A stretch of 64,000 nucleotides of DNA from an uncultured Ignatzschineria sp. (GTDB lineage: Bacteria; Pseudomonadota; Gammaproteobacteria; Cardiobacteriales; Wohlfahrtiimonadaceae). The position numbers and the translations under genes were made by a program. The stretch lies in NCBI GenBank assembly GCA_945639195.1, contig CALZEE010000001.1:186001-250000 (forward strand), given 5' to 3'. The notes under the pieces were generated by a model that saw nothing but the letters and a program-made list of their open reading frames with translations, did not search any database and was not told the origin of the DNA. Below, piece after piece: positions 20,548 to 23,375 of the stretch. The stretch's first letter is position 1. Every line of letters starts with the position of its first letter.

Positions 20548-20850
20548 ATGATTTTAGTACAGATAAATTTTAAGTTTCCAGTAGAAATGATGGGTGAGGC
20601 ACTGACTGAAGGGGCAAAGGGGCTTGCTGAGAGTATTAATAATGAGAAGGGGTTTATCTCTAAATTGTGGATTGAGAATACTGGTACGGAAGAGAGTGGG
20701 GGTATTTATCTTTTTGAGGATCAAGCTAGTGCGGAGCGCTATGTTGGGATGCACTCTCTTAGGGTGGCTTCAATGGGTGCGACAGATATTTCAGTGAAGT
20801 ATTTTTCAGTGAATGAGTCTTTGAGTCGAATCAATCGAGCCTTGTTATAG
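20548..20850 (+). CDS. YdhR-like putative monooxygenase (dimeric alpha-beta barrel)
   Basis: A 100-residue protein of the YdhR family, small ferredoxin-like dimeric alpha-beta barrels annotated as possible mono-oxygenases. Matching features are the N-terminal MILVQINFKF strand, LAESINNEKGFISKLWIEN, SGGIYLFEDQASAERYVGMH and the C-terminal KYFSVNESLSRINRA. The substrate is unknown and no catalytic residue is diagnostic. It lies 23 bases before the first prepilin-like gene and on the same strand, but a functional link is not evident. Confidence 0.8.
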   Translation: MILVQINFKFPVEMMGEALTEGAKGLAESINNEKGFISKLWIENTGTEESGGIYLFEDQASAERYVGMHSLRVASMGATDISVKYFSVNESLSRINRALL

Positions 20851-20873: not shown

Positions 20874-21074
20874 TTGGCGATGGGGGAGAGGAAGGGAGGT
20901 GAAAAAGGATCATTGCTCATCGAGGTTGTACTCGCGTTTGGGCTTCTCATGGCTTTTTTAGTATCTGTGAATCTTTTGCTAGGAGATTTTTTTCAGGCTC
21001 AGGGTGAAATTCGGGCGACTCGGGAAGATTTGAGAGGCGACGTTAACCAGCGGGCGGTAGAACGGGCTCATTAA
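20874..21074 (+). CDS. Short type IV prepilin-like protein (PilV-like)
   Basis: A 66-residue protein with a class III prepilin signal: charged leader, then KG followed by SLLIEVVLAFGLLMAFLVSVNLL. Cleavage after G leaves S at +1 and the conserved E at +5. It is far shorter than usual PilV-type minor pilins, which carry a C-terminal globular part, so it is either a minimal or truncated member. TTG 20874 lies 7 bases after GAGG (20863-20866); the in-frame ATG 20880 is the alternative. Followed after 11 bases by a PilW-like gene. Use of GGG, AGG and GAG codons differs sharply from the neighbouring ribosomal genes. Confidence 0.65.
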   Translation: MAMGERKGGEKGSLLIEVVLAFGLLMAFLVSVNLLLGDFFQAQGEIRATREDLRGDVNQRAVERAH

Positions 21075-21085
21075 TTGGGGGATCT

Positions 21086-22033
21086 ATGGTAGAGCGAGGG
21101 AGGGAGCAGGGTAAAACGCTAGTTGAATTGTTAGTCGGAATGCTCTTGTTTGCGTTGTTAGTCATGGTTTTTAGTGGGGTTATGGCTAGGGTGGTCAGGA
21201 CAATTATATTGTCTGAGCAAGAGATTGAAGTACAAAGTCGAGTTATTCAGGTGGAGGACGCTCTGAGAAAAGAACTTCAGTCTCTTTATTTTGCGCCCTT
21301 TTGCCCCTCTATGCTTCCGGCTTTTTCTGATATGAGGGTAGGTCTTGGGGTAAGTTCTGATTATCATCGTCGACTTACTCAATCAGTGGTGATTTCTTCT
21401 GCTGTGGAATCGGATCGTTTTGCAAAAATGGATCTACATCGATTGAGAGGGCGGGGGAGTTCGACTTATCCTGTGGCGCCTTTAAAGATCTTGCAGGGTA
21501 TTGTGCAAGGCTCTGATATCGTTTCAATCTCTGGATTGAGGCCGACGGGGTTAAGGGTGGAAGGTGATTTGGTTAATGGGGTTCTTCCTGCTGAAATTGT
21601 GGGGGTTAGAAGTGCATACTTTTATATTACAGATTGTCGTAGCGGGATGTTGTTAAAGGCTGATCGTTATCGAGATACTTTTCGTTTTAATGCTGCTGAT
21701 ATTGATCAGTTATCGCAACAAATGGATATGGATCTTATGCATTTGTATGTTGTTAGTGAGTATTTGATCTATTTGCAGGTGAGAAATCAGGTTGCTTATT
21801 TTGTGGTGGATTATTTAGATGGGCAGGCCTTTCTGAGGGTTCCTCATATTTTGGATTTCAAAGCAGAATTGCAGTTTGGTGGGGTGCTGGCTTTTGATCT
21901 TTTGGCAGGTATTCGATCGATCGAGCCGCGACGGGGTTCTTTTTATCGTTATGGATATCATATGGGATATGAGCGGGAATTTGAAAATGATGCATTTGTT
22001 GATGGGTATTCACTACTAATCTCTTTGGAGTAG
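21086..22033 (+). CDS. PilW-like minor prepilin
   Basis: 315 residues. The N-terminus has a prepilin peptidase site, QG followed by KTLVELLVGMLLFALLVMVFSGVMARV, with E at +5 and an unusual K at +1. The long extracytoplasmic part contains the paired cysteines typical of PilW-like proteins and a C-terminal YSLLISLE strand. Likely a minor pilin priming assembly of a type IV pilus or related filament at the inner membrane. Central member of a three-gene prepilin cluster. No pilY1 or pilE homologue is adjacent in this window. Confidence 0.7.
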   Translation: MVERGREQGKTLVELLVGMLLFALLVMVFSGVMARVVRTIILSEQEIEVQSRVIQVEDALRKELQSLYFAPFCPSMLPAFSDMRVGLGVSSDYHRRLTQSVVISSAVESDRFAKMDLHRLRGRGSSTYPVAPLKILQGIVQGSDIVSISGLRPTGLRVEGDLVNGVLPAEIVGVRSAYFYITDCRSGMLLKADRYRDTFRFNAADIDQLSQQMDMDLMHLYVVSEYLIYLQVRNQVAYFVVDYLDGQAFLRVPHILDFKAELQFGGVLAFDLLAGIRSIEPRRGSFYRYGYHMGYEREFENDAFVDGYSLLISLE

Positions 22034-22040
22034 ATATTGT

Positions 22041-23123
22041 ATGCATAAGTGTGAGGCTGGATCTATTTTGGTGGGGCTTATGGTTGTTATGGCTGTAATG
22101 TTAATCATGTTGATTTCACTACAGGGAAGTATTCGGCAAGAGCTTTTTTTGACTCGAAAGACTGTGTTGGCAGTATTAGGGGTGTTGGATAGAGAGTCAG
22201 AATTTTTCAATATAGGGGTTGAGGTTCTTGGTAGGCAGATGGAGCATAATAATATTGTTGGGATAGATGAGAGGTGTTCGCTATTTGGGCGAGATGTAGT
22301 GGCTGGTGATGAGGAGCGGGTTCATATCTCTAGGTTATCTGGTGCTTGTTATGCGGGTAGCGCTAGGATATTGCATCGGATTTATAATATAGATAAGCGC
22401 GAGACAGGAATTACGGAGTATCTCTATATTTATAAAGATCAGAAGTCTATTGATTCAAATTATATTGGTCGTAGTCAACTTACCTGGGGCGTCGATGGGC
22501 TCAATGTTTTAGTTGAGTTTGAAGGGCGCCGATATACTTATCAGTTAGAACGACTGTCATTCAATGCGGGATTTATTAGGCGGGAGGCTGCTCATGTGCT
22601 TGGGTCTGTATCTGAAGATGGTTTTTATTTGCGGATGGAAAATGATTTGTGGTTGTTGCCATTTGATGAGAGTCAAGGGCCTCGGTTACTAGGTGTGTTA
22701 GGGATTGGTTTGAGAGCAATCATGGTGGATTTTATTGTGAACCGGCAATTGAATATCTTGGTTGCAGATAATGTTTTTGGTGATGCTTATAGCAGGATGT
22801 TTACGAGGCTATATTCTCTTGACGCTGCATTGGCAGTGATTAAATCTGAGCAGAGTGAAGGGAGGGGGTTGAGGGATATTTCTTTGGAAAGTTATCAGGT
22901 GCGTATAAATGATCAATACGGAGTGGTGTTGGAAGGCGTGATAGATGGTGGAAATAAGCTGCTTGCAATTGACTGGGGTGGTGCGCCATTGTGGCAAAAT
23001 CGTTATTTGTGGGGTAAGAGGACGCAAGTCGAATGTGGGCTTGAGACTACGTATTTTGAGCCGGTTGAGGGGTGGGTGTTGGGCTGTTGGCGGAAGGCGA
23101 GTACTAAGGTGGGGGTTATTTAA
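22041..23123 (+). CDS. PilX-like minor prepilin
   Basis: 360 residues, starting MHKCEAG followed by SILVGLMVVMAVMLIMLISLQGSIRQELFLTRK, a prepilin signal with G at -1 but lacking glutamate at +5 (glycine instead), as in PilX and other tip-located members. The remaining 320 residues form an extracytoplasmic domain I do not recognise; it contains repeated aromatic-rich strands (for example DGFYLRMENDLWLLPFDE). GGAG lies 11 bases upstream. Family by N-terminus and gene order pilV-pilW-pilX; the large C-terminal domain is of unknown function. Confidence 0.6.
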   Translation: MHKCEAGSILVGLMVVMAVMLIMLISLQGSIRQELFLTRKTVLAVLGVLDRESEFFNIGVEVLGRQMEHNNIVGIDERCSLFGRDVVAGDEERVHISRLSGACYAGSARILHRIYNIDKRETGITEYLYIYKDQKSIDSNYIGRSQLTWGVDGLNVLVEFEGRRYTYQLERLSFNAGFIRREAAHVLGSVSEDGFYLRMENDLWLLPFDESQGPRLLGVLGIGLRAIMVDFIVNRQLNILVADNVFGDAYSRMFTRLYSLDAALAVIKSEQSEGRGLRDISLESYQVRINDQYGVVLEGVIDGGNKLLAIDWGGAPLWQNRYLWGKRTQVECGLETTYFEPVEGWVLGCWRKASTKVGVI

Positions 23124-23136
23124 AGGAGGTGTAGTG

Positions 23137-23208
23137 ATGCAGGTGGCGAGTGATAAACAAGAAAAAGGTCGCGGGGATAATAAGATCGCTGTTGAGCGCT
23201 GTTTTTAG
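23137..23208 (+). CDS. 23-codon open frame with a near-perfect ribosome site
   Basis: ATG 23137 follows AAAGGAGGTG at 7 bases, the best ribosome site in this region, 13 bases after the PilX-like stop. The frame encodes MQVASDKQEKGRGDNKIAVERCF and stops. It may be a real small protein, or the 5' stump of a deleted fourth gene of the cluster. No similarity recognised. Confidence 0.3.
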   Translation: MQVASDKQEKGRGDNKIAVERCF

Positions 23209-23268
23209 AAAATATACATTTTTATGAATCATTTTCTTTTGTATTGGGAAAATTAATCTTGATCGTGG

Positions 23269-23324
23269 TTGACAGAAATAGCTATAAATTATACTATTTC
23301 GTATCCCCTACAATTAATTAGGGG
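23269..23324 (+). promoter_or_regulatory. Promoter and leader hairpin of the str operon
   Basis: Perfect -35 TTGACA (23269-23274), 17-base spacer, -10 TACTAT (23292-23297). Just downstream, CCCCTA (23305-23310) and TAGGGG (23319-23324) form a hairpin at the expected 5' end of the transcript, where it would protect the mRNA from decay. Main promoter of the ribosomal superoperon. Confidence 0.8.
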
Positions 23325-23375
23325 CATTTATGTTATTTTATTGTAACTCATGTTTTAAGCAAGGATTTAGATTTA

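Follow-up and report, generated by a model that had tools for sequence, protein, structure and literature searches.

A conserved, strongly divergent pilV-pilW-pilX cluster in Ignatzschineria and its probable place in a reduced type IV pilus tip

In a 64,000-nucleotide stretch of an uncultured Ignatzschineria genome (contig CALZEE010000001.1, positions 186,001–250,000; hereafter the window, from an assembly of 2.45 Mb in 19 contigs, G000 in locus labels), the listing and translation of open reading frames (ORFs) give three consecutive plus-strand frames at 20874–23123 that encode prepilin-like proteins of 66, 315 and 360 residues. These genes, pilV, pilW and pilX, are intact and probably supply the I-J-K components of a tip complex in a pared-down type IV pilus, one that would most plausibly serve DNA uptake. 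An earlier sequence-only reading of the window had proposed a strongly divergent pilV/pilW/pilX-like minor-pilin cluster here, a proposal that the prepilin signals and conserved orthologs described below bear out. Its span of 20874–23208 was right at the start and too long at the end, where position 23208 closes an 87-residue ORF that overlaps pilX in another frame.

The window locus and its counterparts in the family

A class III prepilin signal (Gly at position −1 and a hydrophobic stretch) can be read in all three window proteins, with Glu at +5 in PilV and PilW and Gly at that position in PilX. PilW alone reaches the cut-off of a hidden Markov model: its N_methyl score is 18.1 bits for the single protein (cut-off 21.2), falling short, and 21.8 bits in six-frame translation of the genome. 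PilV and PilX reach no pilin model cut-off in Pfam or NCBIfam; PilX has no match of any kind, and PilV has weak, sub-cut-off NCBIfam matches to XpsI of the type II secretion system (E 0.0097) and to ComGE (E 0.027). With few or no curated models passed, the earlier remark that the first protein has only 66 residues and that the C-terminal parts of the other two go unrecognized holds. Translation of pilV starts at TTG; from an alternative in-frame ATG (20880) the protein would have 64 residues. After removal of the leader the mature protein has about 54 residues, and the globular head expected of an I subunit was not found in it.

The family sample comprised 18 genomes: nine of Ignatzschineria, six of g2 (which includes Wohlfahrtiimonas), one of genus g3 (G010) and two of g4. 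By PilW profile the cluster is present in 16 of them (eight of nine Ignatzschineria, all six g2 and both g4), a count that takes in G001, whose contig starts inside pilW and holds only a partial pilW and pilX. Wherever the downstream flank could be read (14 of 14 genomes), rpsL-rpsG lies on the same side, and since the cluster is conserved with its synteny in other species the three ORFs are more than chance frames. The PilX profiles of Ignatzschineria and g2 match each other (E 7.5e-7 over about 160 columns); no profile match was found between the PilX of g2 and that of the g4 genome G011, which was assigned by position alone. In G008 no cluster was found, but rpsL-rpsG was also unmatched there, making the absence uninformative. 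G010, a genome 80% complete, has no rpsL-linked cluster; it carries a 105-residue PilV-like ORF at a contig end, beside an rpsT-like gene read from sequence (L097, 4249–4566), which is perhaps a relocated cluster in genus g3.

Close to a PilT-like ATPase gene, G011 also holds another set, canonical in appearance (L099), with a pilin, a fimT-like gene, and pilV, pilW and pilX of 147, 295 and 171 codons, respectively. The rpsL-linked cluster is thus most readily interpreted as a second set of minor pilins in the family. In the window genome no other minor-pilin set was found, the N_methyl scan picking up nothing beyond two pilins (one PilA-type, one GspG-type), FimT and the PilW of this cluster. 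A further set of FimT-, PilV- and PilW-like ORFs occurs in G001 on a 5.2-kb contig (L105, contig C167) that is possibly contamination, the genome being rated 4% contaminated.

Ratios of nonsynonymous to synonymous change (dN/dS, NG86) were obtained for the close pairs G003/G006, G002/G007 and G016/G017, with fdhD as yardstick. In that order they are 0.42, 0.26 and 0.17 for PilV (the first from only 49 codons of a leaderless pair), 0.24, 0.09 and 0.14 for PilW, 0.31, 0.25 and 0.21 for PilX, and 0.09, 0.04 and 0.07 for fdhD; in more distant pairs dS was saturated for PilV and no ratio was obtained. The cluster is fast-evolving but constrained.

The three genes follow a ydhR-like gene (Table 1) at short intervals (23 bases between ydhR and pilV, 11 between pilV and pilW, and 7 between pilW and pilX). 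It is likely the first gene of the transcription unit and probably not a pilus component; a promoter and terminator scan gave no more signals than shuffled sequence. The same upstream neighbor is found in G004, G011 and G013, and was checked by Pfam in the window and in the first two of these (PF08803, 114.4 bits at L027 of G004 and 107.9 bits at L100 of G011). In g2 the upstream neighbor is a dinB-like gene, named from its sequence without a search. Between pilX and rpsL an FdhD-like gene is present in every one of the 14 flank-read loci (four confirmed by Pfam) except the window, where 23124–23375 holds no such gene, no search for fdhD having been made elsewhere in the genome.

Table 1. Predicted genes of the cluster and its upstream neighbor (positions in the window; in prepilin sites the slash precedes position +1)
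Product	Position	Strand	Supporting features
YdhR-like putative mono-oxygenase	20548..20850	+	PF08803, 113.1 bits
PilV/GspI-type minor prepilin, 66 residues, reduced to the α1 helix	20874..21074	+	GEKG/SLLIE, Glu+5; short counterparts in 14 other genomes
PilW/GspJ-type minor prepilin, 315 residues	21086..22033	+	REQG/KTLVE, Glu+5; N_methyl; orthologs; model nearest TTHA1219
PilX/GspK-type capping minor prepilin, 360 residues, long beta-rich domain	22041..23123	+	CEAG/SILVG, no Glu+5; orthologs; low-confidence model

Codon use had been singled out as unlike that of the flanking genes, and the GGG and AGG shares bear this out. The three largest GGG shares among the scored ORFs of the window belong to ydhR (0.56), pilW (0.50) and pilX (0.41), against a background of 0.13 over 58 ORFs, and pilX and pilW have the two highest AGG shares. 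GGG is also frequent in the pilC (12/30), pilD (10/24) and pilQ (11/43) of the same genome, and in the pilW and pilX of several relatives. Because these genes lean the same way, the bias is not a sign of recent import, and a recent foreign origin was rejected, synteny being kept as well.

Short PilV, Glu+5 and the heads of PilW and PilX

PilV is short in all 15 genomes in which it could be read, at 49–95 residues with uncertain starts. Within Ignatzschineria it has 66 residues in the window genome, 95 in G002, 93 in G007, 62 in G004, and 49 in G003, G005 and G006; elsewhere it has 65 in G009, 75 in G012, 68 in G014, 81 in G015, 62 in G016, 63 in G017, and 89 in both G011 and G013. A frameshift hiding a full pilV, which the sequence-only reading had named as a finding that would overturn it, did not emerge, and decay of pilV was rejected as the reason for its size, the relatives' genes being equally short. 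The PilV of G009 matches ComGE at E 5.1e-5, below cut-off. In G003, G005 and G006 the protein has no leader, its frame starting with a Met that lies two residues ahead of the conserved Glu; stop codons directly precede this Met in G003, and in G005 no start codon lies between it and the upstream stop. The differences between the G005 and G003 genes number 18, 13 and 29 at the first, second and third codon positions, respectively, and their concentration at third positions indicates that the 49-codon frame behaves as a translated one. The PilV of G015 (L106, 113–358) has the prepilin site GER/MTLIE, with Arg in place of Gly at −1; a class III signal is thus missing from four of the PilV proteins, those of G003, G005 and G006 for want of a leader and that of G015 through this substitution.

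The third member of the cluster had been described as lacking Glu+5, and PilX does so in all 16 genomes read. PilV has Glu+5 in 13 of 15 genomes, with Ser in G011 and G013. For PilW the count is 8 of 15 (the window genome, G004 and the six g2), with Ser in five (G002, G003, G005, G006 and G007) and other residues in G011 and G013. In the account of the Vibrio cholerae competence pilus, all subunits but the cap need Glu+5, which neutralizes the N-terminus of the preceding subunit, and the modeled tip order runs from PilX through PilV and PilW to FimT (PMC12040237). All three species with a leaderless PilV have Ser at position +5 of PilW, as fits the neutralization rule. Loss of the PilV leader was nevertheless only partly borne out as an explanation for the loss of Glu+5 in PilW, and the two traits are not strictly coupled, because G002 and G007 have lost PilW Glu+5 yet keep the PilV Gly(−1) site, G011 and G013 lack Glu+5 in both proteins, and G015 combines an odd PilV site with an intact PilW Glu+5. 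The tree offers few independent events of either loss: G003, G005 and G006 form a single clade (support 100), and the deeper nodes of the genus are unresolved (support 39 and 53).

Two cysteines of PilW (Cys73 and Cys184) are invariant in ten aligned orthologs, as are four of PilX (Cys79, Cys103, Cys332 and Cys349) in eight aligned Ignatzschineria orthologs, a pattern that suggests that both heads are likely stabilized by disulfides. The PilW model (six-row alignment; predicted local distance difference test, pLDDT, 69.3) lies nearest to Thermus TTHA1219, with a Z of 7.6 over 141 residues at 3.5 Å (best non-pilin row 4.1), although a Z below 8 may reflect merely a common arrangement. TTHA1219 is itself described as closest to GspJ/XcpW (PMC5131608). 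For PilX the model (pLDDT 50.1) consists of a long helix followed by a beta-rich part, and its structural rows are unrelated proteins, most of them containing beta-propellers (Foldseek best E 5.8e-4; VIA Z at most 6.7, none reaching 8), the model being a poor one. A Pfam search with eight PilX members gave one chance match (YecM, E 0.25), and searching solved-structure sequences with profiles of PilW and PilX brought no useful match; the PilX domain is beta-rich and without known family. Profile comparison of PilX with the PilY1 domain likewise gave nothing (E 0.75, with a PilW control alike at E 0.72), and PilX as a shortened PilY1 is left as a weak lead.

Pilus and competence machinery elsewhere in the genome

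As the sequence-only reading had stated, no pilin, PilY1 or assembly gene adjoins the cluster in the stretch read. Its description of the cluster as isolated is apt at this local scale but does not extend to the genome, which has single genes for PilB, PilC, PilD and PilQ and also encodes a major pilin as well as FimT, the latter next to ComEA; the search it had proposed for pilD, pilB, pilQ and pilY1 recovered the first three singly and did not find the last. A survey of 31 genomes of the order (nine Ignatzschineria and 22 others) shows one secretin, one prepilin peptidase and ComEC in each of the nine Ignatzschineria. Two ATPases of the T2SSE family pass the cut-off in each of these, and the remaining nine genomes of the family each have three or more. 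Those of the window genome are one long PilB-like protein and one of the PilT family (PilT/PilU-type), and no second PilT/PilU-type ATPase over cut-off turned up in the nine. The PilB-like ATPase of the window genome has 760 residues (L066, 2939–5221, contig C3), with its T2SSE domain at 379–756; the PilB-like frames of the genus measure 747–848 residues, against about 475–596 in most other genomes, and thus contain extra N-terminal sequence.

The PilQ of the window genome has 480 residues with one Secretin_N domain and scores 324 bits with TIGR02515 (cut-off 284), against 187.6 bits with the GspD model (cut-off 351.35). The two genes before pilQ (L064, 2752–4861, contig C12), of 240 and 461 codons, have no family match above cut-off at the position where PilN and PilO are expected. 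PilM gave no strong match in the nine Ignatzschineria, where the best score is 44 bits in G007 and the others 27–33 bits, against at least 167 bits in 21 of the 22 other genomes; the weak matches sit in frames of FtsA-like length and are presumably FtsA. The pilMNOP part of the machine has either been replaced or become highly divergent. PilD has 240 residues and only the A24 domain, and PilC adjoins it.

The major pilin is PilA-type (PF00114). FimT (PF12019, GspH/FimT-type), found in all 18 family genomes, lies in the window genome beside ComEA (TIGR00426, 70.1 bits, cut-off 53.1), and that genome has both ComEA and ComEC, the pair taken to mark a transformation pilus. PilY1 (PF05567) was found in none of the nine Ignatzschineria genomes, against 20 of the 22 others of the order, the G009 match being weak (over cut-off in the genome scan, but in a 1125-residue ORF without a Pfam match at E 0.001). 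A lone GspG-type pilin (L036, 4291–4731, contig C9; TIGR01710, 94.7 bits, cut-off 88.85) is flanked by EPSP-synthase-like and pseudouridine-synthase-like genes, named from sequence, and no type II secretion set was found.

A model of the pilus tip, its rivals and known systems

In the proposed model, PilD would cleave the leaders of the three prepilins, and the I-J-K complex of PilV, PilW and PilX would start pilus assembly and end up at the tip. PilX, having no Glu+5, would be placed first and cap the filament, and PilV, PilW and FimT would be added after it in the order modeled for V. cholerae, FimT being the putative fourth, H-type subunit encoded elsewhere beside comEA. PilB and PilC would then add the major pilin behind the complex, with exit through PilQ and retraction by the PilT-type ATPase. 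PilV may contribute little beyond its helix, leaving the exposed bulk of the tip to PilW and to the large beta-rich domain of PilX. The Ignatzschineria pilus would be a pared-down one, most likely feeding DNA into the ComEA/ComEC route.

Several observations weigh against such a tip complex for DNA uptake. At its C-terminal site, the DNA-binding motif of FimT (G-[RK]-x-[RK]) is degenerate in all nine Ignatzschineria (GYFR or GYSR) and intact in all six g2 (GRLR or GRTR), and only four of the nine, the window genome among them, have GRIK at a different site; the degenerate motif counts against a simple FimT-mediated reading of DNA uptake. PilV has no recognizable head, the loss of PilW Glu+5 in five Ignatzschineria and two g4 genomes is unexpected under the assembly model, and the cluster is less constrained than neighboring fdhD. 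The PilW model, whose Z remains in the ambiguous range, has no significant Foldseek match (best E 0.19), and the poor model of PilX shows no GspK-like fold. No expression or transformation data were found for these species.

The degenerate FimT motif, the retraction ATPase of the PilT family and the presence of a full major pilin would also suit the minor-pilin set of an ordinary type IV pilus for adhesion or twitching, to which DNA uptake would be incidental. PilY1 is the usual tip adhesin, and its absence from all nine Ignatzschineria, like the lack of a second PilT/PilU-type ATPase over cut-off and the position of fimT next to comEA, speaks against this alternative, which we regard as unlikely. 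It appears improbable that the cluster is a remnant in decay and that its pilV fragment and aberrant signals reflect a lineage losing its pili. The tiny size of PilV, its missing leader in G003, G005 and G006, the Arg at −1 in G015, the loss of PilW Glu+5 in five Ignatzschineria, and the PilV dN/dS of the G003/G006 pair on its 49 codons could all be read in that sense, but the frames are open in all genomes read in which no contig edge cuts the genes, PilW and PilX are under purifying selection in close pairs (0.09–0.31), the leaderless frame is common to three species with differences weighted to third codon positions, and single copies of the assembly genes are retained. With the cluster intact in at least three genera, pilV short wherever it was read, and purifying selection in three close pairs, the earlier suggestion of decay is not sustained.

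A set of type II secretion pseudopilins, the other outcome that the sequence-only reading had allowed for, is very improbable. Weak N-terminal matches to GspI, GspJ and XpsI models and the lone GspG-type pilin are what could be cited for it; the sole secretin is PilQ-type by NCBIfam and does not reach the GspD cut-off, and only two T2SSE-family ATPases pass theirs. This reading was disfavored, a GspD secretin and a GspE ATPase of its own not having been found.

The I-J-K tip complex inferred here belongs to a kind of system that is already known. It is similar to the V. cholerae competence pilus (PMC12040237) in having four minor pilins, FimT among them, and a PilX cap without Glu+5, which the published model places next to PilV, followed by PilW and FimT. 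It differs in that fimT lies at another locus, PilV is nearly headless, PilX is large and beta-rich, the DNA-binding motif of FimT is degenerate, and the PilW of some relatives lacks Glu+5. The Streptococcus Com pilus (ComGD-GF-GE-GG) is likewise described as a reduced pilus for DNA uptake, in which a subunit without Glu+5 caps an H-J-I-K complex (PMC10790768), and the PilV proteins of the window genome and G009 share weak ComGE matches, all below cut-off; here, however, the host is a diderm with PilQ, PilW and PilX are larger, and the genes lie outside the machinery operon. Of the Thermus thermophilus pair Tt1218/Tt1219 (PMC5131608), the PilW model is nearest to Tt1219. The same organism offers a precedent for PilX in ComZ/PilA2, also a competence pilin, whose large grafted beta domain has been argued to lie at the tip (PMC6561018), although ComZ has a beta-solenoid and PilX has no sequence match and a tentative fold. 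The gene order pilV-pilW-pilX is that of the canonical fimU-pilV-pilW-pilX-pilY1-pilE operon of Legionella (PMC8897410), but fimU, pilY1 and pilE do not adjoin the window cluster, and its PilV has 66 residues against about 147 in the canonical-looking set of G011.

The novelty here lies in how far the system is reduced and in the exceptions to Glu+5; among open-licence papers, no work was found on the pili of Ignatzschineria or Wohlfahrtiimonas, or on leaderless minor pilins. A bolder scenario, which we offer as speculation and consider doubtful, is that Ignatzschineria has rebuilt its pilus tip. After the loss of PilY1 and PilM and the reduction of PilV to a bare helix, the beta domain of PilX, perhaps a small propeller, would replace PilY1 as tip receptor. 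In one clade the leaderless 49-residue PilV would join unprocessed by PilD and lacking a normal N-terminus, so that PilW would no longer need Glu+5 there.

Even if the cluster serves only ordinary DNA uptake, it represents missing annotation, since few or no curated family models are passed by its products. Its variants provide a natural test of the rule that only the cap can do without Glu+5, and of the rule that each tip subunit must have a globular head and be processed by the prepilin peptidase. Moreover, the requirements of a working diderm pilus would be narrowed down by a genus that seemingly keeps one without PilY1 or a recognizable PilM.

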